A stretch of 64,000 nt of DNA, taken from the NCBI RefSeq assembly GCF_013001025.1, contig NZ_CP053021.1:2694001-2758000 (forward strand). The letters run 5' to 3'. This DNA is from Sphingobium yanoikuyae (GTDB lineage Bacteria; Pseudomonadota; Alphaproteobacteria; Sphingomonadales; Sphingomonadaceae). Below the pieces are notes generated by a model that was given only the letters and a program-made list of their open reading frames with translations, did not search any database and was not told the origin of the DNA. Each line of letters starts with the position of its first letter. Position 1 is the first letter of the stretch. This document shows, piece by piece, positions 3,135 through 48,269 of the stretch. The translations under genes were made by a program, and so were the position numbers.

Positions 3135-3327
3135 CCACGAGGTAGAGCCGCGGAGGCCCTGCCCTGTGTCCATTTTTGGGTCCACCCGCCTCAATCTTCT
3201 CAGACACTTGGCTCGGCGCTTTTGTGTCCTTGAAAATCAGCTGGTCGGCGTAGGGCTGCAAATGCTTCACCGACATATGCGCATAACGGCGCACCATCAC
3301 CTCAGATTTCCAGCCGCCCAGGCTCAT
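3130..3327 (-). pseudogene. Tyrosine recombinase (integrase) C-terminal remnant
   Basis: Only about 65 residues remain. They carry LGGWKSEVMVRRYAHMS, the conserved end of a tyrosine recombinase: LGGWKS matches the segment following the second catalytic Arg, and RYAH holds the catalytic Tyr. A C-terminal tail of about 35 residues follows. The catalytic Arg-Lys-His-Arg part is absent, and upstream in this frame a stop occurs three codons before the first Met, so the frame is not continuous. It points toward the tRNA, as island integrases do. The remainder was probably lost when the LacI-regulator region was joined here. It cannot be an active enzyme. Confidence 0.85.
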
Positions 3328-23748: not shown

Positions 23749-23831
23749 TAGGGCGTAAATTTCCACTAAGAATTGACCCATGTTGAACTCGTCCCTGGCT
23801 TTGGCAAGCGAGGGTATATGGAGTGTTGGAC

Positions 23832-25355
23832 ATGGCGTTATTGAGCGTTATCCGGCGCTGGCATTTTCGCGATCATCTACCGATCCGGGAGATAGCGCGG
23901 CGCACCGGACTATCACGCAACACGATCCGCAAATATTTGCGGTCCGAGACGATCGATCCGCGATTCAAGGTGCCTGATCGACCAAGCAAACTGGATCCAT
24001 TTGCTGAGCATCTGGCGGCCTGGCTGCGGCGCGAGATGGGCCGATCGCGCAAGCAGAAGCGCACGATCAAGCAGTTTCACGCCGATCTGGTGAGCCTGGG
24101 TTATGAAGGATCCTACAACCGGGTTGCCGCTTTTGCTCGGGACTGGCGCGAAGATTATCGGCGCCAGCAACAGATTGGCGGGCGTGGGACATTCGTGCCC
24201 CTGTCGTTCGCGCCGGGGGAAGCTTTCCAGTTTGATTGGAGTGAGGACTGGGCAATCATTGCCGGGGTTCGGACCAAGCTGCAGGTCGCGCACTTCAAGC
24301 TCAGTTACAGCCGGGCATTCATCGTGCGCGCCTACCTTCTGCAAACCCATGAGATGCTGTTCGACGCCCATAATCACGCCTTCCGCGTGCTGGGCGGCGT
24401 GCCGCGCCGGGGTATCTATGACAATATGCGCACGGCCGTCGACAAGGTCGGGCGTGGCAAGGAACGCACCGTCAACGCACGCTTTCTGACGATGGTCAGC
24501 CACTATCTGTTCGAAGCCGAGTTCTGTAACCCGGCTGCGGGATGGGAAAAGGGGCAGGTCGAGAAGAATGTCCAGGATGCGCGGCACCGTCTGTGGCAAC
24601 CCACGCCGCAGGCCGAGAGCCTTGATGCGCTGAACCTGTGGCTGGAGGAGCGCTGCAAGGCGTTATGGGAGGACATCTCTCACGGGATCGAACCCGGGTC
24701 GGTTGCCAATGCCTGGGCCGATGAATCTGAGTGTCTGATGGTTGCGGGCAGGCCCTTCGATGGTTTTGTGGAATATCGCAAACGGGTATCGCCGACCTGC
24801 CTCATCCACTTTGAGCGCAATCGCTACAGCGTACCGGCCTCTTTCGCCAATCGCACTGTCAGCCTGCGCGTCTATCCTGATCGCTTCCAGGTCGTCGCCG
24901 AGGGGCAGCCAATCTGCGCACATCAGCGCATCATCAACCGCTCTCACGACGGTCCAGGTCATACGGTTTATGACTGGCGCCATTATCTGGCGGTCGTGCA
25001 GCGCAAACCCGGCGCCCTGCGCAACGGAGCGCCCTTCCTTGAGCTACCCGATGCGTTCCAGCGTCTGCAGCGACATCTGTTGCGCAATCCCGGCGGCGAC
25101 AGGGAAATGGTCGAAATACTGGCGCTGGTTCTTCATCATGATGAGCAACTGGTGCTGACGGCGGTCACCATGGCGCTGGAGGCTGGCGTTCCGACCAAGA
25201 CCCATATCCTCAATCTGCTCTATAGGCTGGTCGACGGAAAACCGATCTCCACGCCGCCGGTGACGGCGCCCCAGGCGCTCAAACTGGTCAGCGAGCCGAT
25301 GGCCAATGTCGAACGCTATGATGATCTGCGCAAGGAGAAGCGTCATGCGTCATGA
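23832..25355 (+). CDS. istA: IS21 family transposase IstA
   Basis: A 507-residue DDE transposase. The N-terminus has a helix-turn-helix ([19 protein letters not shown], then TIRKYLRS). The catalytic acids are visible: Asp in [12 protein letters not shown], Asp in [12 protein letters not shown] and Glu in [14 protein letters not shown]-terminal beta-barrel segment follows ([22 protein letters not shown], split here for length only). ATG 23832 is preferred, 9 bases after a GGAG; GTG 23823 overlaps that site. It appears full length and uninterrupted, and overlaps istB by 11 bases, the usual translational coupling. Confidence 0.92.
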
Positions 25356-26151
25356 CCCTGCCAGCGGCGCCATCGTCGTCATGCTCCGCAGCCTCAAGAT
25401 GCATGGCATGGCGCAGGCCGTCACCGATCTCATGGAACAGGGATCTCCAGCCTTCGAAGCCGCCATCCCGATCCTCTCCCAGTTGCTCAAAGCCGAGACA
25501 GCAGAACGGGAGGTTCGGTCTGTGGCCTATCAGCTCAAGATCGCGCGCTTCCCTGTCTATCGCGATCTGGCCGGCTTCGACTTTACCAGTAGCGAGGTCA
25601 ATGAAGCTCTAGTGCGTCAGTTGCATCGCTGCGACTTCATCGACATCGCCGACAATATCGTGCTGGTCGGCGGTCCTGGCACCGGCAAGAGCCATGTGGC
25701 AACGGCGCTGGGCATCCAGGCCATCGAACATCATCGAAAGCGCGTCCGCTTCTTCTCGACGGTCGAACTGGTCAATGCGCTCGAGCAGGAAAAAGCACAG
25801 GGCAAGGCCGGTCAGATCGCCAATCGCCTCCTGCACTCCGATCTCGTTATCCTGGATGAGCTTGGATATCTGCCGTTCAGTGCTTCAGGTGGCGCGCTGC
25901 TCTTCCATCTACTGAGCAAACTCTACGAGCGCACCAGCGTCATCATCACCACAAACCTGAGCTTCAGCGAATGGGCCACCGTGTTCGGCGACGCCAAAAT
26001 GACCACGGCGCTTCTCGATCGGCTTACCCATCACTGCCACATCCTGGAGACCGGCAACGATAGCTTCCGCTTCAAAAACAGCTCTGCCAAGCAGGCCAGA
26101 ACCCAAAGGAGAAAACCACGGGTTGACCCACCCATGACACCCGAAACATAA
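25345..26151 (+). CDS. istB: IS21 helper ATPase IstB
   Basis: A 268-residue AAA+ ATPase that assists IstA in target selection. The Walker A motif is [15 protein letters not shown], Walker B is [13 protein letters not shown], and the sensor region is [16 protein letters not shown]. It overlaps the end of istA and starts inside the AAGGAGAAG-preceded ATG at 25345. The protein is complete, so the element may still transpose. Confidence 0.93.
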
Positions 26152-26876: not shown

Positions 26877-28139
26877 TCAGATGCTGCCAACCGAGCTTCC
26901 TTCACTGACCGCCCCGATCACCGCAATTTCCTTGAGCGGAATGCCGGCATCGGCCAGCTGCACCGGGTCGAGATGGGCGGCCGAGAGCACATGGGCGCGG
27001 CCCTGGACATAGTCCTTGACCGCATTGACGCAGTCGAGCGCGATCACCTTGCCGCCCTTCAGATAGACCACCGAGAAGCTGCGGGTGGCGGGGTCGCCGC
27101 GCAGCACCGTCTGGTCGAAGCCGGTCGAGAGGCCCACGGTCTGGAGCTTGAGATCATATTGGTTCGACCAGAACCAGGGGACGGCGTCATAGGCCTCTTC
27201 CTTGCCGAGGATATGGGCGACGGCGGTCTTGGCCTGGTCATTGGCGTTCTGGACGGATTCGAGGCGCATCTGCGCGCCGCCGGCAAAACGGTTGGCATGG
27301 GCTGCGCAATCGCCCACGGCATAGATGTCGGGCAGCGAGGTGCGGCAATATTCGTCGACGTCGACGCCATTGCCCCCCGCGGCGCCCGCCGCGATCAGCG
27401 GGCCGGTTTCGGGCACGATGCCGATGCCTACGATCACCATGTCGGTTTCGATCCGCTCGCCATCCTGCATCAGCACCGCGGTGGCCCGGCCATCCTCGAC
27501 CGCGATACAGTCCATCTTCGCGCCGGTGCGCAGGTCGACGCCATGGGCGCGATGCTCCGCCTCGTAGAAGCGCGAGAGATCCTCGCCCGCGACGCGGGCC
27601 AGCACCCGGTCGAGCGCTTCGAGCAGCACCACGGTCTTGCCGAACTTGGACAGGACGGCGGCGGCCTCCAGCCCAATATAGCCGCCGCCGATGATGGTGA
27701 CATGGCTGACGCTGTCGATCTTCGCCATCATCGCGTCGACATCGTCGCGGCGGCGCACGGCATGGACATTGGCGGCTTCGGCGCCGCTGCAGGTCAGCAT
27801 CCGGGGGCTGCCGCCGGTACACCAGATCAGCTTGTCATAGCCGATTTCCTCGTCGCCGACGGTGACGAACTTGCCGGCCGGATCGACGCTCTTGACCCGG
27901 CGCCCCAGCAACATGTCGATCTTGCGCTCGTCCCAGAAGGCGGCGGGGCGGATCAGGATACGGTCGAAGCTCTTGTCGCCGGCGAAATATTCCTTGGACA
28001 AAGGCGGGCGCTCATAGGGCGGATCCTTCTCGTCGCCGATCATGCCGACCGAGCCTTCGAAGCCGTGTTGCCGCAGCGAGATCGCCGCCTGCGCGCCGGC
28101 ATGGCCGGCCCCCACGATCAGAACGTCATAGCGAGTCAT
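26877..28139 (-). CDS. NAD(P)H-dependent ferredoxin reductase of the iac dioxygenase
   Basis: A 420-residue FAD flavoprotein of the putidaredoxin/rhodocoxin reductase type. The FAD-binding [14 protein letters not shown] is at the N-terminus, then [11 protein letters not shown], the NAD-binding [18 protein letters not shown] motif ([15 protein letters not shown]), and [13 protein letters not shown]. Its role would be to pass electrons from NAD(P)H through the adjacent [2Fe-2S] ferredoxin to the IacCD ring hydroxylase. It is the last gene of the iac operon, four bases after the ferredoxin. In some other iac clusters a single IacF protein carries the electron transfer role; here the work is split between two proteins. 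Terpene monooxygenase partners are an alternative, but none is present. Confidence 0.87.
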
Positions 28140-28143
28140 TCGC

Positions 28144-28452
28144 TCAATCCTCCGGCGCGATCACAACCTGGAGGCCCTCATGTTCGGCTCCGAGCGAGAT
28201 CTGGCAAGACAGACGACTGGCATCTTCCCGCGCATCGCTACTGTCGAGCAGGTCATTTTCGTCTTCGCTCATCGGCGGCAGCGCATCCGATATCACATAG
28301 ACATGGCAGGTGGCGCAGGAGCAACAGCCTCCGCACAAGGCCATCAGCTCGTCAAAGCCGTTTTCCCGCAGTGCCTCCATCAGAGAGAGGCCCTCATCGG
28401 CCTGAATGATCCTGCTCGAACCGGCACGATCGGTGACATGAATTGCGGGCAC
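28144..28452 (-). CDS. [2Fe-2S] ferredoxin, adrenodoxin/putidaredoxin type
   Basis: A 102-residue electron carrier. The cluster ligands are Cys40, Cys46 and Cys49 in [13 protein letters not shown], and Cys83 in RLSCQIS, the C-X5-C-X2-C...C pattern of vertebrate-type ferredoxins. It precedes its reductase by four bases and follows the hydratase-like gene by 36 bases. It very likely serves the Rieske dioxygenase of the operon in place of the IacF of other clusters. An extra Cys pair (GGCC) inside the loop is unusual. Confidence 0.9.
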
Positions 28453-28488
28453 ATGGCCTCCGTGAAAATAAATTGTTGATAGAAAGAA

Positions 28489-29283
28489 TCAGGCGCGGCC
28501 GAGGGGTACAGCGAGGCAGTCAATTCTGCCGAAGCGTCCGAAATCGGCGACACAGCGTTGGCCTGCCCGGATCCAGTGCATGCCGGTCACTGCGCCGGTT
28601 GATACGAACTGCCCCGCCTTGAGCGGGAAGCCCAGTCTCGCGCACTGATCAAGTGCGAAGGCGAGTGCAGTCAAGGGGCCGCCAGGAAGCTCGGCAGCCG
28701 TTGCGCTACGCATCAAAGTGCCGTCTATGCGGGTAGTACAGGTCATGCCGCGCGGATCGCCGAGTACCTCAAGAGGAATGGCCGGCCCGAAAATCTGACC
28801 ATTATTATTGCCAAGATCTGCAATAGACGCCAGCGCATCGAGATCCGGCATGACGGCAAGTGGACTTCCAGCCACCTCCACGCCAATCCTTACCTCACCC
28901 ACCAGACGCCGAGCCTGATCGATATCGACCCCTGTCTGCAGCGGCGGCTGATCTTCACCCAGGACCATGACATATTCCGCTTCGAATGCAGCAGATCCGC
29001 CGACGAAGACCGGAAAATCTGCTTCCTCGCCTCCATCAAGATGGGTAACGCCGCCGGCAAAGACCGGTCCTACGAAGCGATCCATCCCGAAGCGATCGGC
29101 CAATGCCGGACTGAGGCGTCCGACCTTCCAGCCGGCAATAGCGTCGGGCCACAGATCGATGGCGGCCAGCTGGATCGTATAGGCATCGTCGAGGTCAGAG
29201 GGGAAAAGGCCCGGAAATTTCGCCAGACCATGGCCACGCCTGCGGGCAGCAACGAAGCTTGCCGCTATTTCGACCGCAACCAT
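28489..29283 (-). CDS. 2-keto-4-pentenoate hydratase / fumarylacetoacetate hydrolase-family protein
   Basis: A 264-residue enzyme of the hydratase branch (MhpD/HpaH/XylJ-like). Motifs are GWKVGRLSPAL, VGPVFAGG, FEAEYVMVLGED with the metal-ligand Glu residues, LGNNNGQIFGPAIPL, and VSTGAVTGMHWIRAGQ near the end. The family hydrates 2-hydroxypenta-2,4-dienoates or acts on related enols after meta-cleavage. ATG 29283 starts one base after the iacG stop, so it is co-translated with the auxin genes. It is not one of the canonical iacABCDEFGHI genes. It may process a ring-opened IAA intermediate, or the catechol meta-cleavage product, but no dioxygenase for catechol is in the window. Confidence 0.8.
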   Translation of the reverse strand: MVAVEIAASFVAARRRGHGLAKFPGLFPSDLDDAYTIQLAAIDLWPDAIAGWKVGRLSPALADRFGMDRFVGPVFAGGVTHLDGGEEADFPVFVGGSAAFEAEYVMVLGEDQPPLQTGVDIDQARRLVGEVRIGVEVAGSPLAVMPDLDALASIADLGNNNGQIFGPAIPLEVLGDPRGMTCTTRIDGTLMRSATAAELPGGPLTALAFALDQCARLGFPLKAGQFVSTGAVTGMHWIRAGQRCVADFGRFGRIDCLAVPLGRA

Positions 29284-29284
29284 G

Positions 29285-29779
29285 TCAGGCAGCAGCCCGC
29301 ATCGGCAGCGCGTGATATTGGCGGTCGAAATAGACCAGTCCCGGCTCTTCCCCACCAATCAGCAAATGCTGCACCTCGCACAGAAAGATGCTGTGGCTGC
29401 CCATCTCCACGACCGAAGCAATGGTACAGCCAAAGGCTGCCAGCGCTCCGGTCAGCGCCGGCACGCCATGGCCCAGCATGGTCCAGTCTGCCGCCGCGAA
29501 ACGTGCGTCCATATCGAGGTTCTTGTCGGCAAAGGTGCCAGACAATCCGGCCTGCCCGCCCGCCAGCACATTGACCGTCAGTTGGCCATTATCTTTCAGC
29601 ACATCATGCATTCTCGCCGACTTGTTGATGCATAGCAGCAGCGAGGCTGGGCTGTCGCTGACGCTGCACACAGCCGATGCGGTCATCCCATGTCGTCCGG
29701 CGGCGCCATCTGTGACAATGATGTTTACAGCAGCGCCCAGACGCGCCATCGCGGCGCGAAATAACTGTGTCTCGATCAT
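29285..29779 (-). CDS. iacG: Flavin reductase, IacG-like
   Basis: A 164-residue flavin reductase of the HpaC/NtaB class. Motifs are GAAVNIIVTDG, GMTASAVCSVSDSPASLLLCIN, NVLAGGQAGLSGTFAD and SIFLCEVQ. It would supply reduced FAD/FMN to the IacA-type oxygenase that starts indole-3-acetate breakdown. It lies 7 bases after the SDR gene in the iac operon. Activity with IacA is known for the family from other bacteria; here it is inferred from gene content. Confidence 0.83.
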   Translation of the reverse strand: MIETQLFRAAMARLGAAVNIIVTDGAAGRHGMTASAVCSVSDSPASLLLCINKSARMHDVLKDNGQLTVNVLAGGQAGLSGTFADKNLDMDARFAAADWTMLGHGVPALTGALAAFGCTIASVVEMGSHSIFLCEVQHLLIGGEEPGLVYFDRQYHALPMRAAA

Positions 29780-29786
29780 GTCGCCC

Positions 29787-30542
29787 TCAACGCATCAGCA
29801 AGCCGCCATTGATGTCCCAAATGGCACCATTGGCGAAAGCAGCCTCGGGAGAGGCCAGATGGACGGTGGTTGAAGCCACGAAATCGGGCGAGCCCAGATG
29901 ACGGACGGGAATGCCCGCAACGATGCCCTCCAGCTTGTCCTCGGGTACCAATGCCCGGACCGACGGCAGGTCGAGCGGACCCGGCGCGATCGCGTTGACG
30001 GTTATGCCGAACGGCGCGAGATCCCGTGCAAACACCTTGGTCAGGGTGATGATTCCACCCTTGGATGCGGCATAATGAGCGCCCGTCGCCGTCCCGCCAT
30101 TTTGCCCCGCGAGCGAGGCAATGTTGACGATGCGGCCATGGCCCTTGTTCTTGAAATAGCGGCCCAGGACCTGGCAGCCAATGAAGGTACCCCGCAGATT
30201 GACCGCCAGCACCTTGTCGAACTCGTCCGGACTGATCTCCAGTACCGGGCGAACGATGGTGACGACGGCATTGTTGACCAATGCCTCGATTGATCCCCAG
30301 CGCGCGATGAGCGCGTCGCGAGCAGCCTCGAACGCAGCCTCGTCGCGTACATCGAGTGTAAGGCCCAATGCGGTTTCACCGCTTGGATCAAGCTCCAGCG
30401 CCAGTGCGTGGGCCGCAGCGCCGTCAATGTCCGAGATCCCGACATTGTAGCCCGCCTCGTGGAAGGCGCGTGCAATAGCGGCGCCCAGCCCTTGCGAACC
30501 GCCGGTGATGAGCAGCGTCCGCGGATTTTCCGGGCGGCTCAC
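29787..30542 (-). CDS. iacE: Short-chain dehydrogenase/reductase, IacE-like
   Basis: A 251-residue classical SDR. The cofactor motif is TGGSQGLGAA, the structural motif is NNAVVT, the catalytic Ser lies in NIASLAGQNGG and the YxxxK pair in HYAASKGGI. The C-terminal sequence (ASPEAAFANGAIWDINGG) is typical. In iac clusters IacE is an NAD(P)-dependent reductase acting on an oxidised indole-acetate intermediate. The start overlaps the iacD stop (ATGA), showing coupling. Without the operon context it could only be called an SDR. Confidence 0.82.
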   Translation of the reverse strand: MSRPENPRTLLITGGSQGLGAAIARAFHEAGYNVGISDIDGAAAHALALELDPSGETALGLTLDVRDEAAFEAARDALIARWGSIEALVNNAVVTIVRPVLEISPDEFDKVLAVNLRGTFIGCQVLGRYFKNKGHGRIVNIASLAGQNGGTATGAHYAASKGGIITLTKVFARDLAPFGITVNAIAPGPLDLPSVRALVPEDKLEGIVAGIPVRHLGSPDFVASTTVHLASPEAAFANGAIWDINGGLLMR

Positions 30543-31060
30543 AGCAGATATCCGATCCCAAACTGGAAATCGTCGGCGTTGATCAGCGCCACAACCTTCT
30601 CATCAAGGAGGAGCGAGCCATCCTCCGCCCGAACGATGCGATAACGCGTGTCGGCGGGCAGGAAGCGCATATGCTCATATTTATATTCGGCCAGCATCTG
30701 CGCCCCGCGCAGCGTGATCGAGCTCTCGTCCCGTGCCTCAAGCACGAACCGCGATACCGTTCGCACGGTCCGAGCCGGCGGCGCCGATGACATGGAGAAA
30801 CCCGACAACAGTCGCTTGGCGCGCGCCTGGCGCATCTCCTGGTCGTCATAGACGATGTTGAGCGCGTCGACATAATCGGCATCGCGCTCAACCGGGATAA
30901 TATATTTGCCGGTCTGCGTCCAAAGCTTGAGCCAGGGCTTGTAGTCCAGCCGGTCAAGCATGTCGGCTTCAGCCCAGATGAAGGCGATCGCCTCCTCGAA
31001 CGTCGGCGCCCCCGTCTGCAAATCCGTCACGACATTTTTCTCCTGAAGATCGAAGCTCAT
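30539..31060 (-). CDS. iacD: Aromatic-ring dioxygenase small (beta) subunit, IacD-like
   Basis: A 173-residue NTF2-fold protein. AIAFIWAEADMLDRLDYKPWLKLW is broken here as AIAFIWAEAD and LDYKPWLKLW; together with YIIPVERDADY and RTVRTVSRFVLEA these match Rieske dioxygenase beta subunits. It has a structural role, pairing with the alpha subunit at 31057-32313 in an alpha3beta3 complex. It overlaps the alpha stop by four bases (ATGA) and its own stop overlaps the iacE start. ATG 31060 is chosen over 31081 because of that coupling. Confidence 0.86.
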   Translation of the reverse strand: MSFDLQEKNVVTDLQTGAPTFEEAIAFIWAEADMLDRLDYKPWLKLWTQTGKYIIPVERDADYVDALNIVYDDQEMRQARAKRLLSGFSMSSAPPARTVRTVSRFVLEARDESSITLRGAQMLAEYKYEHMRFLPADTRYRIVRAEDGSLLLDEKVVALINADDFQFGIGYLL

Positions 31061-32313
31061 GCGCTCATCATCCGCTTCCACTGCTGATAGGCAGCCCTCA
31101 TGCCGGTCTCAGCACTGACGTCACCCGCATTATGGCCGACCTCGGCCACGCCATCGGGCGCATCAACGCCGCGATTGAGCATGATCCAAAGATCATCGCC
31201 CGCCCGCGCACCGCGCTGCACCCGCTCCCAGCCCTCGGCATCGTCGGGCGTGCCAAAGCCCATCGGCCCCTGGAAATGCTCATGCAGCCGCAACCGCGCT
31301 CGGTTGCCCGCTGCCGGGCCGCCGTCCATGCCGATAGCGACGTGGGTAATTTCCGTCTCATCGACCGCCACCGGGCGCAGCACGCGGAAAAAGGCCATGG
31401 AACAGGCGACATTGGGGAACAGGTTCAGGTTGAAGCCCGAACCGCCCACGGCGCGCACCACCTTGCGCACCGTCGCATCGTCATGCCCCTCGTCGCGCAA
31501 TTCCTGCGCCAGATCGGCGAAACGATCAGGGATCGGCGCGTCGAGATTATCTTCGAGGTCGATGAGGTCGGGGATCATCACCATGACGCTGTGGCCATTG
31601 CCCAAATCCTCGACCCAGCCGCCCTGCCCCAGCACGTCGAAGACATTTTCCGTCTCCGCGTCGAGACTGTCGAGAAAGGTCTTGTGGACGATCGGGAAAT
31701 GATAGGCGTCGGTGGTGTTCTCCAGCTGGATTTTCCAGTTGCCCGGAAAGCGGAACTTGTGTTCGCCAAGCGTCTTCACGCCAAAGCCAGCACCCTGTTT
31801 CATGAACAGGTCCATCCACTTCTTGGCCGGCCCCAGGAAATCCACCAGCGGTTCGATATCGCTGTTGAATGTGGCAAAGATCATGCCCTGATAGATTTCG
31901 ACCCGCAGCGAGATCAGCGGGAACTCCGTAGTGTCGAACGCCTCGTCATAGCCCTTGGCATGGGGCACCTTACGCAAGCGGCCGTCGGGATCGTAGCTCC
32001 AGCCGTGATAGGGGCAGACGAAGACGCTGGCCTTGCCCTTCTTCTTCTCGCACACACTTGCCGCGCGGTGGCGGCAACGGTTCAGAAGGACATGGACTTT
32101 GCTTTCCTTGTCCCGCGTCACGATCACGGGCTGGTTACCAACAAAACTGGTCTTGAACGTGTTCTTCGTTGGCACGTCACTTTCATGGGCGACCCAGACC
32201 CATGTATTGTTGAAGATCCGGTCCATCTCTTCCTCAAAGATAGCGGGATCCTTGTAGAGCGCGGTATGGACGCGATCGTCCTTCACCAGCGCGGCGAAAT
32301 CTGTGGTGCTCAT
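31057..32313 (-). CDS. iacC: Rieske non-heme iron dioxygenase large (alpha) subunit, IacC-like
   Basis: A 418-residue catalytic subunit. The Rieske [2Fe-2S] ligands are Cys80-His82 (NRCRHRAAS) and Cys100-His103 (FVCPYHGWSYD). The mononuclear iron site has His205 and His210 in TTDAYHFPIVHK, with bridging Asp202. In iac pathways this subunit dioxygenates the oxindole-type intermediate made by IacA, on the way to catechol. Electrons would come from the ferredoxin and reductase at the end of the operon. It is tightly packed, overlapping the SnoaL-like gene upstream and iacD downstream by four bases each. Confidence 0.9.
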   Translation of the reverse strand: MSTTDFAALVKDDRVHTALYKDPAIFEEEMDRIFNNTWVWVAHESDVPTKNTFKTSFVGNQPVIVTRDKESKVHVLLNRCRHRAASVCEKKKGKASVFVCPYHGWSYDPDGRLRKVPHAKGYDEAFDTTEFPLISLRVEIYQGMIFATFNSDIEPLVDFLGPAKKWMDLFMKQGAGFGVKTLGEHKFRFPGNWKIQLENTTDAYHFPIVHKTFLDSLDAETENVFDVLGQGGWVEDLGNGHSVMVMIPDLIDLEDNLDAPIPDRFADLAQELRDEGHDDATVRKVVRAVGGSGFNLNLFPNVACSMAFFRVLRPVAVDETEITHVAIGMDGGPAAGNRARLRLHEHFQGPMGFGTPDDAEGWERVQRGARAGDDLWIMLNRGVDAPDGVAEVGHNAGDVSAETGMRAAYQQWKRMMSA

Positions 32314-32846
32314 GCGCCCTCCTCGGCGTCTTGCTGGGGGACGGAAATGTCGGCCTCGTCATTCCACGGGCCGACATCCCGGGAGAAAATATTCTCGGTC
32401 ACGAAACGGGACATCCGCCACGCACCGTCCTCGAAAACACAGTCGATCGTCAGAGCCGCACTGCGGCAGTCAGATCGGCCGTCGCGATAGGTCGATACCT
32501 GCAACATCATCCAGCGACCGGTGGCATGCCCCGCATCCGCGACGTCGATCGTCTCGGACGAGAGATAATGGCCGTTCAGTCTGAAGTGCAGCGGGCTGGT
32601 ATAGCTGGCCAGCATGGCGACGATGGCGTCGCGCCCCTCATGCCGGCCGAAAGCCTTGCGATAGCGCCCCGTGCCCTCCCAGACAGCATCGCGGGTGAAC
32701 AGCCCGCCCAGCACATCCATCGGGGTCGACGGCCCCAGCGTGTCGCACAGACGGAAATAGTCCATCACGACGCGCCGGACCGCCGCCTCTGCTTCCAGCA
32801 ATGCGATCCGCTGGCTCAACAGGGCAAGGGCGCCGGCTTCTGTCAT
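32310..32846 (-). CDS. iacI: SnoaL/NTF2-like protein, IacI-like
   Basis: A 178-residue alpha+beta barrel protein (LEAEAAVRRVVMDYFRLCD, LFTRDAVWEGTG, GRDAIVAMLASY, HFRLNGHYLSSETI, with CVFEDGAWRMSRF). This is the SnoaL-like fold of the IacI proteins in iac clusters, whose exact step is not settled. It also resembles ring-hydroxylase small subunits, which share the fold, so a structural role is possible. ATG 32846 overlaps the iacB stop (ATGA), and the stop overlaps the iacC start. Confidence 0.78.
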   Translation of the reverse strand: MTEAGALALLSQRIALLEAEAAVRRVVMDYFRLCDTLGPSTPMDVLGGLFTRDAVWEGTGRYRKAFGRHEGRDAIVAMLASYTSPLHFRLNGHYLSSETIDVADAGHATGRWMMLQVSTYRDGRSDCRSAALTIDCVFEDGAWRMSRFVTENIFSRDVGPWNDEADISVPQQDAEEGA

Positions 32847-33205
32847 GCGGGGATGACCAACTCCCGGCCGACCCGGGCTTCGACGCGCATATATTTCCAA
32901 AGTCGATACTCGCCGACCTCGATGGTGCGGAACAGGTTGCAGGCGGCGACCACCGTCGCGCGATCGGGCACGTCCGCCATGACGTAGAAGGTCCAGGGCC
33001 AGCCATTGGGCGAGGTGCCGACCATGGTTTCGTCATCGTCCAGCGTACCCAGCACGGTCACGCCCGGCAGGTCACGAATGCCCTTGAGCATCTCGCCAGT
33101 GGCGGCCCAGACCTTGCCGATCTCGGTTGCGGGCAGATCGAAGAAATTCTGGAGCACGGCAGCGCAGAAAAGGACGCGCAGGGGTTTGGCAGGTGTGTCG
33201 GTCAT
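32843..33205 (-). CDS. iacB: Small conserved protein, IacB-like
   Basis: A 120-residue protein without signal or membrane segment. It contains FDLPATEIGKVWAATGEML, GVTVLGTLDDDETMVG and GWPWTFYVMADVPDRATV, and may have a ferredoxin-like alpha+beta (dimeric barrel) fold. Position between an acyl-CoA-dehydrogenase-type iacA and iacI, and its size, fit IacB of other iac clusters, whose biochemical function is uncertain. Identification rests on synteny as much as on sequence. Confidence 0.68.
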   Translation of the reverse strand: MTDTPAKPLRVLFCAAVLQNFFDLPATEIGKVWAATGEMLKGIRDLPGVTVLGTLDDDETMVGTSPNGWPWTFYVMADVPDRATVVAACNLFRTIEVGEYRLWKYMRVEARVGRELVIPA

Positions 33206-33225
33206 GAATGCGATCCTTTTGTCGA

Positions 33226-34392
33226 TCAGGGAAATCCGGGCGGGTTGTCGAGCCCGAGCAGCACCCGGCCCGCGCTGGCAAACGTGCCTTCGGACAGGAA
33301 GGCATGCTGGGCCACCACCATCGCGTCATGGACATAGGCCGCAAGCGGATGGTCGTTGTAGATGCCGGTTGTGCCCGACAGCATGAAGGCGGTCTGGGCG
33401 ACTTCACAGCCGATCCGCGCAACGTGGCTCGAGGCGAGGCGCAGCAAGCCCGTTTGCTTGAGTGATGCCGGATCGCCCGCGCACAAGGTAGCCCAAACAT
33501 CCTCGGTCGCCTCGTAGAAGAAGACACGGGCAGATCGGAGTTTGGCTTCTGCCTTGGCAATCTCGGTCTGCACATAGGCGCGGTCGGCCAGCACCGGCGC
33601 TCCAGTGATGGAGGCGCGCCCTCCCGCCATCTGCGTGATTTCGTCCAGTGCGGCGCGCGCTACACCCACACCAACGATCGCCAGTACCTGCGCGGCGAAG
33701 GCCATGGAGGGATAGCGATAAAGCGGCGTGTCGAGTGTCGGCGCGCCGCCCCGGATGAAGGTCCATTCTTCTGGTACGACGACCTCGTCGACGACCAGGT
33801 CATGGCTACCCGTGCCCTGGAGGCCGATCACATCCCAGTTGCGTTCGATCGCGACCGACGAGGCGGGCATGACCGCCATGCGCGGAAGGCCGCCTTTCTC
33901 GCCTTCCACTTTGACGCCGACGCCGATGATATCGGCCCCGGTCGATCCGCTGCCGAACTTCCAGCGCCCCGACACCTTGAGGCCACCCTCGACCTTCGCC
34001 GCTGCCTGCGGCGGGAAGAGCGCACCTGCAAAGATCACGTCCGGCCCATCGGCATAGACCTTGGCCAACGTCCCCGTCGGCAAAGAGGCCAGATACATGG
34101 ACGAGACACCGAAGCTTGCCACCCAGCCTATCGAGCCGTCAGCCTCGGACAAGCGCTCGATCAGCTTCAGGAAGGTCGCAGGCGACACCTCCAGACCACC
34201 ATAGCGGGTCGACACAAGCGCCCTGTAGACGCCCAGGCGGCGCAGCTCGGCGACTATGTCGGCCGGCAATTGGCCAAGGGCCGCAATTTCCTGCCTTCTT
34301 GCGCGGAAAGAAGCGATCAGCTCTTCGCCAATGGGGGCGATGCCGGGCGTTTCCGCGGCGCTCCGCCCGGAAAGGGCGTTCAACGCGTTCAT
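33226..34392 (-). CDS. iacA: Indole-3-acetate monooxygenase, acyl-CoA dehydrogenase-like flavoprotein (IacA-like)
   Basis: A 388-residue member of the two-component flavin monooxygenases built on the acyl-CoA dehydrogenase fold. Features: N-terminal helical domain (ALGQLPADIVAELRRLGVYRALV), YGGLEVSPATFLKLIERL, the flavin-contact region SGRWKFGSGSTGADIIGVG, and the C-terminal segment SGTTGIYNDHPLAAYVHDAMV. No acyl-CoA catalytic Glu is obvious. In iac clusters IacA with the reductase IacG hydroxylates the indole ring of IAA, the first step. The ATG 34392 shares its A with the iacH stop (TGATG), showing coupling. Confidence 0.85.
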   Translation of the reverse strand: MNALNALSGRSAAETPGIAPIGEELIASFRARRQEIAALGQLPADIVAELRRLGVYRALVSTRYGGLEVSPATFLKLIERLSEADGSIGWVASFGVSSMYLASLPTGTLAKVYADGPDVIFAGALFPPQAAAKVEGGLKVSGRWKFGSGSTGADIIGVGVKVEGEKGGLPRMAVMPASSVAIERNWDVIGLQGTGSHDLVVDEVVVPEEWTFIRGGAPTLDTPLYRYPSMAFAAQVLAIVGVGVARAALDEITQMAGGRASITGAPVLADRAYVQTEIAKAEAKLRSARVFFYEATEDVWATLCAGDPASLKQTGLLRLASSHVARIGCEVAQTAFMLSGTTGIYNDHPLAAYVHDAMVVAQHAFLSEGTFASAGRVLLGLDNPPGFP

Positions 34393-35531
34393 CAGCAAAT
34401 TTCCTTATGTTGTAGATTCTGGTCAGAATGGGCGAACAAGCGCGCGATGGCGCAGAGCCGTGCATCATCTCCCCGGCGCGCCACCAGTTGCAGCGCCGCC
34501 GGTCGCCCTGACGGCGTTGTCAGCGGCAGCGAGATCGCAGGATGGCAACTGAGGTTGAAAGGACGCACGAGAGAGGACAGCCGCAGGATCGATGCCGCGT
34601 CACCCATTGCGTCGACGTGCGGCGGAAATCCTGGCAGTGTCGGCAACGCCAGGACGTCAAAGCGCTCCAGCAAGGCATCAACCTGCGCAATGAAGCTGGC
34701 CTTGACTTCTTGCGCCCAGACCATGCGTTCCACCGTTGCAACCGTGGGTGCTGCGCGCAAACGTTGTTCGACATCAATGCCAAGCAGACCTGTGTCCACC
34801 AGATGACCGTAAGCGGCAGAAGCCTCTGCTGCCATTTTGACGACGCCAGCCTGGAAAGCGTCCTCCAGAAGCGGCAGGGAGCAGGTTTCGACGGCATCCC
34901 AAAGCGAAGCAAGCGCAGCGGCAACAGCGCCCGCCACCTCTTCATCAGCGATGACTTCTACAAATCCTATGGCGGGCCGAGCAACTGGGTCAGCGACCGC
35001 AAAATCAGGATCCATCTGTTCCATGGCACCTTCGATCAGCGACATGGAGCGGGCGAACAAGCCGACACAATCCAGGTCGCTGTCGCTTGGCGTCAGGCCA
35101 TCGCGGCTTAGCCGTCCAAAGCTCGGCTTGAAACCGATAACACCGCAACAGGCTGCAGGCATGCGGACCGAGCCACCCGTATCTGTGCCGAGCGACAGGT
35201 CGACCAGTCCGGCAGCGACTGCAGCGGCAGAACCGCTGGATGATCCGCCGGGCATAAGGCCGGGATAGAGCGGATTTTCGACATGTCCCGTCCAGTCGTT
35301 GAGGCCCGTCATGCCGTAGGCCAATTCGTGCATGCTCGCCTTGGCAATGATCCGATAGCCGGCCTCAACCAGAGCCTGCACCACGTGGGCGTTACGCTGT
35401 GCAGGTGCGACATCGGCAAAGGCCCGGGAGCCGCAGCAGGTGCGCGCGCCCGCAATATCTATGCAGTCCTTGACTGCGACGGACGGACCACTGCCCGGCA
35501 CGTCATAGCTTTCAATCAGGATAGCAGACAT
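34392..35531 (-). CDS. iacH: Amidase-signature hydrolase, IacH-like
   Basis: A 379-residue cytosolic amidase, first gene of the auxin operon. The Ser-cis-Ser-Lys triad is visible: Lys21 in VAVKDCIDIAG, cis-Ser97 in MPGGSSSGSAAA and nucleophile Ser121 in GTDTGGSVRMPA. It has FKPSFGRLSRDGLTP, typical of the family. IacH occurs in many iac clusters without a settled role; hydrolysis of an indole-acetyl amide or of a late amide intermediate are options. The start at 35531 follows AAGGG; the upstream ATG at 35573 would abut the predicted operator. Confidence 0.83.
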   Translation of the reverse strand: MSAILIESYDVPGSGPSVAVKDCIDIAGARTCCGSRAFADVAPAQRNAHVVQALVEAGYRIIAKASMHELAYGMTGLNDWTGHVENPLYPGLMPGGSSSGSAAAVAAGLVDLSLGTDTGGSVRMPAACCGVIGFKPSFGRLSRDGLTPSDSDLDCVGLFARSMSLIEGAMEQMDPDFAVADPVARPAIGFVEVIADEEVAGAVAAALASLWDAVETCSLPLLEDAFQAGVVKMAAEASAAYGHLVDTGLLGIDVEQRLRAAPTVATVERMVWAQEVKASFIAQVDALLERFDVLALPTLPGFPPHVDAMGDAASILRLSSLVRPFNLSCHPAISLPLTTPSGRPAALQLVARRGDDARLCAIARLFAHSDQNLQHKEIC

Positions 35532-35573
35532 CCCCGATTTCCCTTGATGGCTGATATAAGAAAGCTGGATCAT

Positions 35574-35595
35574 ATTACGTGAATAGTCAAGTAAT
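35574..35595. promoter_or_regulatory. Predicted IacR (MarR) operator between iacH and iacR
   Basis: A 22-bp palindrome with 18 symmetric positions, of the form ATTACnTGAnT followed by AnTCAnGTAAT. It lies 42 bases before the iacH ATG and about 110 before the iacR ATG. MarR proteins bind 16-24 bp palindromes of this kind in divergent promoters of catabolic operons. Confidence 0.7.
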
Positions 35596-35704
35596 TTTCA
35601 TTCATTCTCTTGCTTGAACATGCCCCGGTCTCCCGGTAGGGATTTTGGGGCGGGAGAGATGCGGGCCATCTGGGTGCCGGAGCCCGCGCAAGCAGGGATC
35701 ACAG

Positions 35705-36175
35705 ATGGTTGAAGAGGTACAGGAACCCGAAATTGCAGGTGACGCCGCCCCCTTCAACATGGAGGAATGGCCCTTCTACTGGCTCACCCGCTTTACCGGC
35801 CGCTATCTGCTGCAAATGGAACTGGCACTTAAACCGCTGGGCCTCGACATCCCGCGGTGGCGTGTGCTCATGACATTGCGCAACCGCGAGACGATGAGCG
35901 TCAGCGAGATTGCCGACCATGCGATCGTCAAGTTGCCGACCATGACCAAGATCGTGAAGCGCATGCAGGCCGACAATCTGGTGCATTGCAGGCAGAGTGT
36001 GGCAGACGGCCGAGTGACCGAAGTCTCGCTGACCCCTGAAGGCGTTGTCGCTGGTCGCAAGGCCTGGGAAGCAGCGAACAGGATTTACGAGCGCGCCTTT
36101 GAAGATCTGTCGAAAAAGGATGTTTCGACACTCAACAAACTTCTCCGGACGATAACGCGCAGCCTGGCTGGCTAA
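35705..36175 (+). CDS. iacR: MarR family regulator of the auxin operon, IacR-like
   Basis: A 156-residue winged-helix repressor: FYWLTRFTGRYLLQMELAL (dimer helices), IPRWRVLMTLRNRETMSVSEIAD, KLPTMTKIVKRMQADNLV and the wing SVADGRVTEVSLTPEG. It is divergent from iacH with the predicted operator between. In other iac systems IacR represses the cluster and is relieved by indole-3-acetate; the same is inferred here. ATG 35705 gives a normal MarR length; earlier starts add residues without family pattern. It is followed by a strong hairpin terminator. Confidence 0.88.
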   Translation: MVEEVQEPEIAGDAAPFNMEEWPFYWLTRFTGRYLLQMELALKPLGLDIPRWRVLMTLRNRETMSVSEIADHAIVKLPTMTKIVKRMQADNLVHCRQSVADGRVTEVSLTPEGVVAGRKAWEAANRIYERAFEDLSKKDVSTLNKLLRTITRSLAG

Positions 36176-36288: not shown

Positions 36289-38433
36289 TTAGAAATTATA
36301 GGTCAGCTTGGCGCCATAAGTGCGCGGCGGCGCCATGCCGTAGCTGTAGGTGCCAAAGCGCGTGCTAGCGACGGCACTGGTTATGACCGTTTCATCCTCG
36401 ATGTTGCGGACAAAGCCCTGCAGGCTCCACTTCTTGCTCTCCGGCGTGAAGGTCACGATCAGGTCGCTACGCGAATAGCTGTCCTGCTTCTGATAGGCGA
36501 AATTCTCGATCCCATAGAAGGACGAGGTTTCGATATGGGTCTGGACACGCGGGGTCAGCGTGCCGCCGAGCAGCCCGAAGCTGTGCTCATATCCCATATT
36601 GAACGACCAGCGTGGCGCCTGGGTCGAGCGGTTGCCCGAATAGTCGGTCACGCAGGTACCGTCAGTCGCGATGTTGAGACAAAGCTCGGTATATTCCGAA
36701 TGCAGGAATACCGCGCTGGCATCAAACCGGTCGACGTCGCTCGGCTGGAAGACGGTTTCCGCCTCAAGTCCCCAAATGCGCGACTTACCAGCGTTGAATA
36801 CCGCCGAAAGACCGACCGTCTGGTCACGCACCGAAATCTGCTGATCCTTGTAATTATACAGGAAGGCCGACAGGTTCAGTTGCAGGCTGTTATCGAGGAA
36901 GCGATTTTTCGAGCCGACTTCCCAGGAAGTGATGGTTTCCGGCTGATATGGCAGGGTATTCTGCCCCGGCACAGTATTGAAGCCACCCGCCTTATAGCCG
37001 GTATCAAACTTGGCGTAGACCATGTTGCGCGGGCTATAGTCGTAGGTCAGGCCAGCATGATAGGTGGTCTTGGTGCTCGAGGCATCATCGTCCTGCGCAA
37101 CATTGCCACTGCCGGTGTTGCTGTAGCCCGTGCGGCTCTTATAGTCGTCCGAATAGCGGATACCAAACTCCGCCTTCAGCCCGTCGATCACTTCATAGCT
37201 TGCCTGCCCGAAGGCGGCCTTCGACTTCGCCTTCACATTATAGGAGAAGGTGAAGATGTTCGACGGCGGATTGGCCACCGCATAGCTCTGGAACAGGCTG
37301 AACAGGTCCGAGGTTTCGCGGAACAGATAGCCGCCGATCTGCCACTTGAACCGGCCATTGCCGTTAGAGACCAGGCGGACCTCGTGGGACCAGTCATGCA
37401 CCTTCTCGGTTGGCTGAATATAGGCCGCCTGGCTGGTAGTGCCGTCCAGATCGCGCAACTGCGAATAATCGGTGTCGCGGAAGCCACCCAGATAGACCAG
37501 GCTCGCAAAGCCCAGATCATATTCGCCGTTCCATTGGATCGTGCGCAGTGTCGTGTCGATATACTGGTTTGGCAGGCTGTGCGGCGTGCCGTCGCCATCC
37601 ACGTCCGGGCGATAGCTGGTGTCGATCGCACCCGAGGAGGTATACCGCAGCGGCGTGCCCCACATCGTCGGACCGACGCCGCCGATTTTGGTCAACTGGC
37701 CGGTCAGCAACAGCTTGAGGCGATGGGTCGGTTTCCACTGAACGTGAAGGCGCACCGACTGGGAATCAGCGTCGTCGCCGGCGCGCGCAGGCGCCTCATT
37801 GACGCGATAGCCGTCATGCTTGCTGGTCGAGAACGCCGCGCGAACCGCCAGCGTGTCCGTGACCGGCAGGTTGATCATGCCCTCGGTCGTGATCTGGTCG
37901 TAATTGCCCACGCCGACCGCAACCTTGCCCTCGAACTCGTCCTTAGGCTTTGCGGTGATGACGTTGATCGCGCCGCCCGTGGCATTACGGCCGTAGAGCG
38001 TACCTTGGGGGCCACGCAGGACTTCGACGCGCTCGAGATCGAACATCGAATCGCCAAAGCCGAAGGGCTTCTGGATGTAGAAACCATCCTGCGCAATCGA
38101 GATGGCCGGATCGCCGATTTCATTGGTGTTCTGGCTCGAAACGCCGCGCACCGCGATGATGACGTTGGCGGAGTTCTTGGAGATGCCCACCCCCGGCGCG
38201 ATCGCCGCGATATCCGTCAGCGTGGAAACGCCATTCTTTTCCAGCGCCTTTTGATCGAAAGCGGTGATGGCGATCGCGGTCTTCTGAACCGATGTTTCCC
38301 GCTTTTCAGCCGTAACGACAATTTCGTCGATACCGCCGGAGGACTGCTCGGCCGTCTGCGCCATGGCCGCACTTGCATGGAAGCCTGCCAGCACGACCAG
38401 ACTCACACTGCTCAAACGCTTGAACTGTTTCAT
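36289..38433 (-). CDS. TonB-dependent receptor (mid-size, plug with GRNATGG)
   Basis: A 714-residue outer-membrane receptor. The signal peptide ends SAAMAQ. The plug starts with IDEIVVTAEKRETSVQK and includes FDLERVEVLRGPQGTLYGRNATGGAIN, given here as LERVEVLRGPQGTLYGRN and ATGGAINVIT. The barrel ends with TYGAKLTYNF and terminal Phe. This subtype is abundant in sphingomonads for siderophores, vitamins and aromatic compounds, and is shorter than the sugar-type receptors elsewhere in the window. The AAGGGG site precedes ATG 38433. It lies between the auxin operon and the penicillin-acylase gene and may import a substrate for either. Confidence 0.9.
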   Translation of the reverse strand: MKQFKRLSSVSLVVLAGFHASAAMAQTAEQSSGGIDEIVVTAEKRETSVQKTAIAITAFDQKALEKNGVSTLTDIAAIAPGVGISKNSANVIIAVRGVSSQNTNEIGDPAISIAQDGFYIQKPFGFGDSMFDLERVEVLRGPQGTLYGRNATGGAINVITAKPKDEFEGKVAVGVGNYDQITTEGMINLPVTDTLAVRAAFSTSKHDGYRVNEAPARAGDDADSQSVRLHVQWKPTHRLKLLLTGQLTKIGGVGPTMWGTPLRYTSSGAIDTSYRPDVDGDGTPHSLPNQYIDTTLRTIQWNGEYDLGFASLVYLGGFRDTDYSQLRDLDGTTSQAAYIQPTEKVHDWSHEVRLVSNGNGRFKWQIGGYLFRETSDLFSLFQSYAVANPPSNIFTFSYNVKAKSKAAFGQASYEVIDGLKAEFGIRYSDDYKSRTGYSNTGSGNVAQDDDASSTKTTYHAGLTYDYSPRNMVYAKFDTGYKAGGFNTVPGQNTLPYQPETITSWEVGSKNRFLDNSLQLNLSAFLYNYKDQQISVRDQTVGLSAVFNAGKSRIWGLEAETVFQPSDVDRFDASAVFLHSEYTELCLNIATDGTCVTDYSGNRSTQAPRWSFNMGYEHSFGLLGGTLTPRVQTHIETSSFYGIENFAYQKQDSYSRSDLIVTFTPESKKWSLQGFVRNIEDETVITSAVASTRFGTYSYGMAPPRTYGAKLTYNF

Positions 38434-38489
38434 CGCTAAAACCCCTTTCGCTCTTGTTTTGTTACCGAACGACATCAATTTTTTATGTC

Positions 38490-38513
38490 ATTATATCGTA
38501 ATCTTCAAGTATT
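38490..38513 (-). promoter_or_regulatory. Promoter of the TonB receptor with possible IacR half-site
   Basis: On the minus strand a consensus TATAAT occupies 38495-38490. Just upstream, 38513-38505 reads AATACTTGA, matching eight of nine bases of one half of the 22-bp iacH/iacR palindrome. The second half is not conserved. This is a weak hint of shared control. Confidence 0.35.
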
Positions 38514-40997: not shown

Positions 40998-41019
40998 GCG
41001 ACCTCTGAATTATCGGAAG

Positions 41020-43262: not shown

Positions 43263-43560
43263 TCACTCCCCTTCTCGCCTCTTTGAGGTCGACAAGACCA
43301 GCGATCAGCGCTGGATTAGTTGAATGTTCATTTATTATGCAATCTTTGTCAACGAAATTTCACATTTCTCGGAACGATCCAAATCTCATGTAAATACGTC
43401 AGTTTGTCGCGATAAAACTTCAGAAAAATACGCATGAACGAATGAAGTTGGAAAAGCCTCAACCAGCATCAAAAAAATTGAAGCCCGCTCTAAAAACGCC
43501 CAAAGATTAATTGACATTTCAATTAAATTTGCTTTGCTGCCGGCATCAACGGAGGCAGAA
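43263..43560. promoter_or_regulatory. AT-rich divergent control region with TTAATTG palindrome
   Basis: About 300 bases without a gene, richer in A+T than the neighbours, between the epimerase (minus) and GH3 (plus). At 43507-43526, TTAATTG and CAATTAA form a 7-bp perfect inverted repeat with the 6-base centre ACATTT, resembling the A/T-rich palindromes bound by ROK or MarR regulators. GGAGG at 43551-43555 is the ribosome binding site of GH3. Confidence 0.55.
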
Positions 43561-48224: not shown

Positions 48225-48269
48225 CTTTTAATCAGTAGGTCGCTGGTTCGAACCCAGCTGGACTCACCA
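48225..48269 (+). repeat. Right attachment-site repeat (attR), 3' half of tRNA-Lys
   Basis: A perfect 45-base copy of tRNA-Lys positions 3052-3096: anticodon loop, variable loop, T arm, acceptor strand and CCA. The 5' half is absent, so it is not a tRNA gene. It marks the former 3' end of the tRNA displaced by the island. Confidence 0.93.

Follow-up and report, generated by a model that had tools for sequence, protein, structure and literature searches.

Two iac operons for the breakdown of the auxin indole-3-acetic acid (IAA) are the closest described clusters for the locus considered here. That of Pseudomonas putida 1290 encodes a route from IAA to catechol, lies on a predicted genomic island and has cat genes beside it (PMC6624763); the other is on the Acinetobacter baumannii plasmid pTS134338. 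Two papers describe the steps as far as dioxindole acetate (DOAA) and present those from DOAA to catechol as the unsolved part of bacterial auxin breakdown (PMC7225977; PMC9613470). For strain PsJN, iacCDF and possibly iacI are named for the latter steps, and iacH is not named in the portion available (PMC9613470). Among sphingomonads, Root720 is one of three Sphingomonas strains among 21 measured IAA degraders, and two IacR regulators are reported in Sphingomonas (PMC11630574).

Here we describe an operon of Sphingobium yanoikuyae within a stretch of 64,000 nucleotides, the whole of which we call the window. It is predicted with high confidence, from gene content, order and protein similarity, to be an auxin operon of the known iac type.

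An iac Operon with Additional Genes

The list of open reading frames (ORFs) in the window gives iacR and eleven minus-strand genes in the order H-A-B-I-C-D-E-G, hydX, ferredoxin and reductase (Table 1), neighbors in the operon overlapping or lying no more than about 40 bp apart. Together with Pfam, the list confirmed the order, the minus-strand layout and the divergent MarR-type iacR of a preliminary description of this DNA. The likely starts are slightly off the ORF starts: about 29283 for hydX by alignment and, by eye, about 32846 for IacI, 35705 for IacR and 35531 for IacH.

Table 1. Features of the operon, the adjoining genes and the island (positions in the window).
Feature	Position	Strand	Evidence or remark
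attL, 3′ end of tRNA-Lys(TTT)	3052..3096	+	tRNA prediction, repeat search
Possible relic of tyrosine-integrase C-terminus	3181..3327	-	translation
IS21-type transposase and IstB pair	23823..26151	+	Mu-transpos_C_2, IstB_IS21
Ferredoxin reductase, Pyr_redox_2 / Reductase_C type	26877..28139	-	Pfam
2Fe-2S ferredoxin	28144..28452	-	PF00111 (Fer2); ten-residue motif
hydX, FAH/MhpD-fold enzyme, iac-linked subfamily	28489..29283	-	Pfam FAA_hydrolase, linkage, tree, structure model
iacG, flavin reductase	29285..29779	-	PF01613
iacE, short-chain dehydrogenase	29787..30542	-	PF13561 (SDR); NNA, YAASK
iacD, dioxygenase beta subunit	30539..31081	-	PF00866 (Ring_hydroxyl_B)
iacC, Rieske dioxygenase alpha subunit	31057..32313	-	Pfam Rieske and Ring_hydroxyl_A; 83% to Root720
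iacI, SnoaL-like protein	32310..32900	-	PF13577 (SnoaL_4)
iacB, small conserved protein, no Pfam family	32843..33205	-	alignment A3
iacA, flavin-dependent IAA monooxygenase	33226..34398	-	identity to iac loci
iacH, amidase-signature hydrolase	34392..35573	-	PF01425; GGSSS, VKD
Candidate IacR operator	35574..35595		palindrome, one mismatch
iacR, MarR-family regulator	35705..36175	+	divergent from iacH; Pfam MarR; best PDB chain 7kua
TonB-dependent receptor, last gene of adjacent operon	36289..38478	-	PF00593, PF07715
Penicillin-G-acylase homologue, export-like N-terminus	38574..40997	-	480 bits to 7reo; 38% to P0280
MFS transporter	41020..42351	-	PF07690
TIM-barrel protein, Tat/lipoprotein-like N-terminus (by eye)	42348..43262	-	PF01261
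GH3 beta-glucosidase-like protein	43534..46350	+	divergent from TIM-barrel gene
attR, identical 45-bp copy	48225..48269	+	repeat search

The catalytic motifs had been called intact, and regular expressions for patterns that mark these families matched: the Rieske CRH...CPYH and iron-site DAYHFPIVH in IacC, the SDR and amidase motifs of IacE and IacH (Table 1), and C-x5-C-x2-C in the ferredoxin. IacA has an acyl-CoA-dehydrogenase fold by Pfam, and its gene is single-copy in this genome. IacB is 52-95% identical to the 53 other sequences of its alignment; its structure model has ferredoxin-like alpha/beta elements, and when this model was searched against the folds of the PDB, nothing matched at E 0.001 or below.

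For comparison we used 115 loci (after dropping ten duplicates), of which 75 hold both iacA and iacC and 40 lack one or the other at our thresholds. For the survey of split operons below, genes were called by tblastn identity thresholds and joined into one operon across gaps of up to 1000 bp; loci that are related to each other do not count as independent. Of these 75, 36 have H-A-B-I-C-D-E unbroken and in this order, as does the operon on the A. baumannii plasmid, so the arrangement is not due to chance. IacA is 59% identical to that of Root720, 60% to that of locus L098 and 48% to its plasmid-borne counterpart in A. baumannii, and two of the 120 IacA relatives listed carry the source name indole-3-acetate monooxygenase. 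IacA and IacE are a predicted flavoprotein monooxygenase and a predicted dehydrogenase, and the adjacent iacC and iacD are of the iac rather than the iad type.

It could be argued that the operon is of the iad type, or serves another aromatic (anthranilate, benzoate or indole), and merely looks like iac. The top NCBIfam models for IacC are indeed benzoate and anthranilate dioxygenases (BenA/AntA), and its PDB matches include 7yls, an IadD chain. The scores, however, are below the cut-offs (213.5 of 781 bits and 205 of 672 bits), whereas across the 75 loci the counterparts of IacC share 56-92% identity with it, and iacA is present. The regulator, a MarR protein of the IacR type, matches P. putida IacR at 118 bits and the Variovorax iad regulator (7kfo) at 41 bits. 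We consider this alternative very improbable. The iac reading of the preliminary description thus holds.

The operon shares H-A-B-I-C-D-E followed by G with pTS134338. Unlike the pTS134338 and P. putida 1290 clusters, it lacks IacF and has instead the ferredoxin, the Pyr_redox-type reductase and hydX. It had been called nearly complete, which is correct in that the canonical IacF is absent. It had also been matched, hydratase, ferredoxin and reductase included, to the known cluster; this stands for the iac core, but the three genes are outside the canonical iacA-I set. Two related loci, those of Root720 and genome G220, have iac proteins 47-83% and 48-84% identical to those of the window, respectively, with hydX present and no IacF found. 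In both, A-B-E is separate from H-I-C-D-hydX and two regulators are present, whereas the window has a single operon with a single regulator. Catechol genes, which had been proposed as a check, are present as a ben-cat-pca run; the cat genes are about 2.3 Mb from the operon, in contrast to P. putida. The two catechol dioxygenases pass Pfam and fall below the NCBIfam equivalog cut-off.

Probable Electron Supply

A relative of IacF was found in none of the 30 sphingomonad loci with iacC (Root720 included), against 38 of 43 other loci. Because of this uniform absence, IacF is no defining feature of the operon in sphingomonads. In its place, IacCD is probably fed by the linked ferredoxin and reductase. 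Locus L125 has a ferredoxin copy of 80% identity, none was found in L126, and the reductase was found at this place in neither.

Split Operons and hydX

In 14 loci the operon is split, and A-B-E-G never occur together with H-I-C-D. Four loci are of the P. putida type, with C-D beside A-B-E-F-G and H-I apart. No mention of the absence of IacF from sphingomonads or of the splitting was found in the general iac literature searched; Fig 2 of PMC11630574 depicts the loci of Sphingomonas, and both may be visible there.

hydX is a separate, iac-linked gene. It shares a contig with iacA, within about 33 kb, in 11 of the 18 iacA genomes among the 397 of the family sample, and the seven best hydX scores in that sample all come from iacA genomes. 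In a tree of 18 iac-linked and 21 unlinked copies, a single supported branch separates the two groups. Elsewhere the pathway does not need hydX, since the gene is not near iac in the other 7 of the 18 genomes and was found in 13 of the 75 loci, all alphaproteobacterial. It is undescribed in the iac literature searched, and the word hydratase is absent from the available portions of PMC11630574, PMC9613470, and PMC7225977.

The structure model (pLDDT 92.8) has MhpD (1sv6) as its best PDB match. Among the best 20 matches, which comprise the MhpD / HpcG / 4-oxalocrotonate decarboxylase fold, TM-scores are 0.72-0.86, with sequence identity of 19-24%. The Glu-x-Glu...Glu of this fold, which has a metal role, is kept: Glu126, Glu128, and Glu161 are invariant in 45 aligned sequences. 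The fold and the weak similarity to MhpD would suit a mere 2-oxopent-4-enoate hydratase of a meta-cleavage pathway that is in the operon by accident, and a paralogue (C1:845092) shows that related enzymes are kept elsewhere in the genome. The MhpD equivalog model, however, scores hydX at 42.5 bits with a cut-off of 350. The catechol genes found belong to the ortho pathway (meta-pathway genes being outside the search), and the iac-linked copies group apart in the tree and travel with H-I-C-D. An accidental hydratase is therefore improbable.

We return to hydX as part of the pathway. Since it sits with H-I-C-D in all nine of the split loci that have it, it would act between DOAA and catechol, a placement to which we give an even chance. 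Natural splitting thus assigns A, B, E, and G to the upper half of the pathway and H, I, C, and D to the lower, adds hydX as a candidate enzyme for the lower half and reduces the unsolved steps to a few assays.

In the upper half, IacA, with reduced flavin from IacG, would convert IAA to 2-oxindole acetate, which IacE would convert to DOAA. IacCD, probably fed by the ferredoxin and reductase, would lead to catechol, to be consumed by the chromosomal cat-pca products. A detailed scheme for the lower half can be drawn, which we put forward as speculative and rather unlikely to hold in full. IacH would open the DOAA lactam. IacCD would attack the two ring carbons that bear the nitrogen and the side chain, in the manner of anthranilate dioxygenase; catechol would remain once ammonia was lost and oxaloacetate released in a retro-aldol step. 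hydX, as a metal-dependent enzyme of the MhpD/FAH fold, might aid the carbon-carbon release or handle the C4 acid. This assignment of IacH to lactam opening may be incorrect, because iacH is not among the genes named in the available portion of PMC9613470 and is absent at our threshold from 9 of the 75 loci, some on contigs that end early.

The tRNA-Lys Island

The operon lies on an island, 45,173 bp of DNA flanked by a pair of exact direct repeats, each made up of 45 bp from the 3′ end of tRNA-Lys. These repeats and the patchy distribution of iacA, found in 6 of 94 genomes of the genus, back the earlier proposal of an island gained by transfer, and we are highly confident that the operon, with its iac function, was acquired horizontally. 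Genomes G463, G479, G425, and G427 have repeat pairs of other spans. No working integrase was found among the Pfam-scanned ORFs, a subset of those in the island. Beside attL is a possible relic, the product of which we take to resemble a tyrosine-integrase C-terminus; Pfam gave nothing for its 49 residues. The link of the operon to plants, also proposed earlier, is one that we infer.

The Neighboring Operon

The TonB receptor, acylase, MFS and TIM-barrel operon, together with the beta-glucosidase, perhaps serves to scavenge auxin conjugates, a suggestion drawn from sequence. The acylase is of the Ntn type, with the catalytic beta-Ser1 at residue 271 and a beta subunit starting SN-W. P0280 is a penicillin acylase of Achromobacter. 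Counted along the alignment with the penicillin G acylases 7reo, 1cp9, and P0280, beta-Ser1, Asn241, and Arg263 are kept (for residue roles, see PMC3347531). Beta-24 is Phe in those three and Met in the window acylase and both its relatives; beta-71 is Phe in 1cp9 and P0280 and Arg in the window acylase and both relatives. Beta-69 of the window acylase is Val. Unlike those three, the window acylase is encoded next to auxin genes. No mention of an acylase-auxin link was found in the literature searched; PMC12369477, in the portion available, names penicillin acylase just in a reference. A PvdQ/AHL-acylase assignment was rejected, since it scored 90.6 of 950 bits and the match to penicillin G acylase reached 480 bits.

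A rival view, that these five genes are a second and unrelated cargo of the island, has in our judgment an evenly balanced chance. The island holds other sugar-degrading genes, no IacR-like operator was found before the acylase operon (up to three mismatches, in the window), and TIM-barrel copies in G220 and G174 are distant from iac or sit on a different contig. On the other hand, three genomes of the genus, this one among them, keep the block next to iac, and differently ordered TIM-barrel, GH3 and TonB genes occur close to iac in N. rosa and Caulobacter. MFS copies of 52-65% identity are beside iacA in more loci (L048, L052, and L097-L099) and in the vicinity of iac in L038 and L091, and two metagenome contigs, matched by equal length alone, apparently hold both IacA and the acylase. 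The fullest version of the scavenging reading, which we offer tentatively, as possible rather than probable, makes the island a complete unit: the TonB receptor would take up plant auxin conjugates, the exported acylase (with Arg beta-71) would free IAA from amino-acid amides, the beta-glucosidase and Tat-type TIM-barrel lipoprotein would remove sugar, the MFS protein would import IAA, and the extended iac operon, with hydX as an iac-specific enzyme of the step from DOAA to catechol, would burn it. If the neighboring operon does free conjugated auxin, some bacteria could tap plant auxin stores beyond the free hormone.

The Regulator and Its Candidate Operator

The best PDB chains for IacR are 7kua, followed by 7l19 and 7l1i; 7kua is P. 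putida IacR (PMC9613470). IacR would repress the iac genes until IAA binds. The candidate operator is identical in three genomes in which the surrounding intergenic DNA has diverged, and a scan of the window that allowed up to three mismatches gave no second site of this kind. A different palindrome is present at 43507-43526.

Make-Up of the Operon

The genome (5.94 Mb, four contigs; the window is C1:2694001-2758000) holds the open reading frames named in the preliminary description, and ORF calling with domain and motif searches gave the expected domains and motifs. The order is iacH, A, B, I, C, D, E and G, followed by hydX, a ferredoxin gene and a reductase gene, with iacR divergent. Because adjacent iac genes overlap or nearly touch, they are likely transcribed as one unit. 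The assignment to the iac type is borne out by comparison. When an alignment of 19 IacA proteins was scanned against one genome per species, H, A, B, I, C, D, E and G clustered in most of the best 80 loci of at least 559 confirmed relatives (tblastn, window proteins). Identities to Sphingomonas sp. Root720 are R 47, H 52, A 59, B 83, I 64, C 83, D 65, E 64 and hydX 47%, and the closest solved relative of the regulator is P. putida IacR (7kua). Sphingomonads with an iac operon are already known, since Root720 is among measured degraders of indole-3-acetate (IAA): PMC11630574 has 21 such strains, three being Sphingomonas with iac, and a legend lists Root720 among these three. The window operon is a new member of a known system, in slightly rebuilt form. 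What gives it value is an iac-linked hydX, the absence of IacF, the way the genes divide naturally into two halves, and a neighbour block whose putative scavenging of conjugates can be tested.

Features of the window (positions in the window)
Feature	Position	Remark
attL, 3′-end 45 bp of tRNA-Lys	3052-3096	exact repeat with attR
Polysaccharide-related genes, first group	4946-18513	
iac operon	26877-35573	minus strand
Ferredoxin and reductase genes	26877-28452	
Neighbour block	36289-46350	
Palindrome	43507-43526	between GH3 and TIM-barrel genes
Polysaccharide-related genes, second group	43534-57012	
attR, 45-bp copy of tRNA-Lys 3′-end	48225-48269	exact repeat with attL

Some other loci are worth recording. 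In about nine Bradyrhizobium loci among the best 80 (L050, L055, L056, L068, L073, L080, L082, L084, L086), the iacA relative (56–60%) stands alone, no other iac gene being found within 10 kb at the tblastn cut-offs used. The sampled genome G220 has, besides a split iac locus, two further iacA-like genes (L107 and L108; 51 and 47% identical), one with its own B-I-H-C-D-E set. A protein filed under the fungus Friedmanniomyces endolithicus (P0175), 100% identical to the window IacA over 62% of IacA, is probably bacterial contamination.

The Missing IacF and the Added hydX

IacF, the canonical iac reductase, was sought in stored flanks by searching with the A. baumannii protein (35% identity or more, across half of the query; seven duplicates excluded). 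No relative was found in the 30 sphingomonad loci with iacC (of 34 with iacA); 38 of the 43 non-sphingomonad loci have one. Some of the contigs stop near the operon. The window ferredoxin and reductase are of the kind serving ring-hydroxylating dioxygenases (the top-scoring models, AndAa and HcaD, are under cut-off), and the genome's own ben-cat cluster (L132:1249-4540) has relatives of both, 60 and 63% identical respectively. The ferredoxin has an 80% copy in locus L125 and none was found in L126; no reductase copy was found in either.

The hydX product is modeled with an MhpD-type fold (pLDDT 92.8), and its best PDB match is MhpD. Three Glu never vary in its alignment and one Lys hardly does, residues with a functional role in this fold; scores are far under curated cut-offs. 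Genes like hydX occur in 130 of 397 family genomes (E 1e-30), and the seven top scores all fall in iacA genomes, our own among them (hypergeometric 1e-10, the genomes being non-independent). Of the 18 iacA genomes of this sample, 11 have hydX on the iacA contig, within about 33 kb. Among the matches listed, seven contigs, paired by equal length only, combine a top hydX match with a top IacA match. In a tree, 18 iac-linked and 21 unlinked copies separate at one branch (support 96/94), as cleanly as in none of 500 label shuffles. The linked rows take in the L094 copy, 32 kb from iac, and the long-branched L028; the unlinked are mostly the best unlinked matches plus our own paralogue.

Split Operons and a Proposed Route to Catechol

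Our survey covered 115 loci (ten duplicates dropped), 75 with both A and C at its thresholds, 61 unsplit and 14 split. In the split loci, A is accompanied by B in 14, E in 12 (elsewhere in 2) and G in 6 (elsewhere or not found in 8), and C by H in 14, D in 14 and I in 8 (elsewhere or not found in 6). None of the 14 has B, E or G beside C, or H, I or D beside A. Nine have hydX: four within the H-I-C-D operon, four as part of an R-hydX operon that diverges from H (in two of these hydX is also tail-to-tail with iacG) and one divergent from H; there is no case in the A-B-E operon. Adding four unsplit loci with hydX beside or behind the operon gives 13 of 75, all alphaproteobacterial. Judging from the taxa, splits would have arisen at least twice (Sphingomonadales; Herbaspirillum/Duganella). 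Counter to a simple sorting rule, four unsplit P. putida-type loci keep C-D with A-B-E-F-G, and H-I apart. The grouping puts IacB in the first steps and IacH in the later ones. IacB with IacI was tried on dioxindole acetate (DOAA) and gave no conversion, according to PMC7225977.

On paper, DOAA + H2O + O2 + NADH + H+ -> catechol + oxaloacetate + ammonia + NAD+ would balance. IacH would open the lactam, IacCD would attack in the manner of anthranilate dioxygenase, and a retro-aldol release would follow; hydX could fit this release, or what then becomes of oxaloacetate. We infer every reaction of this scheme; gene grouping and folds are what we observe. Two points speak against the role of IacH: an account of PsJN credits iacCDF, possibly with iacI, and not iacH (PMC9613470), and iacH was not found in 9 of the 75 loci at the survey thresholds.

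Catechol genes, which the preliminary description would have sought elsewhere in the genome, are there. The Pfam intradiol dioxygenase family has three matches, two full-length (C1, C3). The C1 copy is part of a ben-cat-pca run that also encodes a BenA-like alpha subunit, a beta subunit, BenD, muconate cycloisomerase, muconolactone isomerase, PcaD, two CoA-transferase subunits and PcaF. BenD, cycloisomerase, PcaD, the PcaI family and PcaF exceed NCBIfam equivalog cut-offs; both dioxygenases (333.6 and 330.8 vs. 392 bits) fall under theirs, as does the BenA-like protein (669 vs. 781 bits).

The Neighbour Block

The genes for the TIM-barrel protein, MFS carrier, acylase and TonB receptor share one orientation, separated by less than 100 bp or by an overlap, and the set ends tail-to-tail with iacR. 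The acylase is related to penicillin G acylases (480 bits; 38% to an Achromobacter enzyme), and beta-Ser1, Asn241 and Arg263 line up. The window protein and both relatives have Met at beta-24 and Arg at beta-71. In the E. coli enzyme, residue beta-71 touches the leaving group, and mutants with Arg or Lys at this position are more active on some substrates; Arg263 positions N-phenylacetyl amino acids (PMC3347531). Such enzymes may liberate phenylacetate for carbon (PMC1687198). The closest solved relative of the GH3 protein is the beta-glucosidase 4i3g; it, the acylase and the TIM-barrel protein have export-like N-termini by eye. Amide and glucoside conjugates of IAA occur in plants (PMC8558338), and the block may scavenge them.

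The block is kept in G440 and G457; N. rosa and Caulobacter have GH3, TIM-barrel and TonB genes near iac in different orders. Of the 397 family genomes, 7 have a TIM-barrel relative (E 1e-50); four of these have iacA as well (p 1e-4; 1e-3 minus our own genome), with the two on one contig in our genome and G083 only. GH3 relatives (E 1e-150; two best candidates per genome scored) occur in two, the second lacking iacA. Against a conjugate-scavenging link, no operator shared by the iac and neighbour operons was found, and other polysaccharide genes are also on the island.

The perfect palindrome TTAATTGA-N4-TCAATTAA, conserved in three genomes, is likely the site of another regulator. The TIM-barrel gene is a tandem pair in G083, G174 and G220. 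Five proteins of about 1300 aa (P0300, P0302, P0318, P0319, P0336) combine an amidase-signature and a penicillin-amidase domain in one chain.

The Island

That the operon lies on an island holds up: an exact 45-bp tRNA-Lys repeat pair bounds a 45,173-bp span, and IacA is patchy in genus and family. A 24-base core of the repeat occurs at these two places only in the genome (up to 2 mismatches). A reading frame just inside attL, which gave no Pfam match, resembles the end of a phage-type integrase. Since four relatives hold repeat pairs at the same tRNA (about 81 kb apart in G463, 62 kb in G479, 38 kb in G425 and 20 kb in G427), the site is an integration hotspot with changing cargo. IacA relatives occur in 6 of 94 genus genomes (E 1e-60; three 92–100%, two about 60%, one partial 49%) and 18 of 397 family genomes (E 1e-100). 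In G440 and G457, iac and the tRNA-Lys site are 275 kb apart or on different contigs. G+C is 57–63% in most 2-kb steps at about 18–44 kb of the window and 63–70% beyond 54 kb, and an IS21-type pair (Pfam) adjoins the 3′-end of the operon. Two groups of genes in the window are rich in polysaccharide-related functions (GH97, GH2, GH3, GH78, rhamnogalacturonan lyase, ROK, sugar MFS, esterases), part within the island and part past attR.
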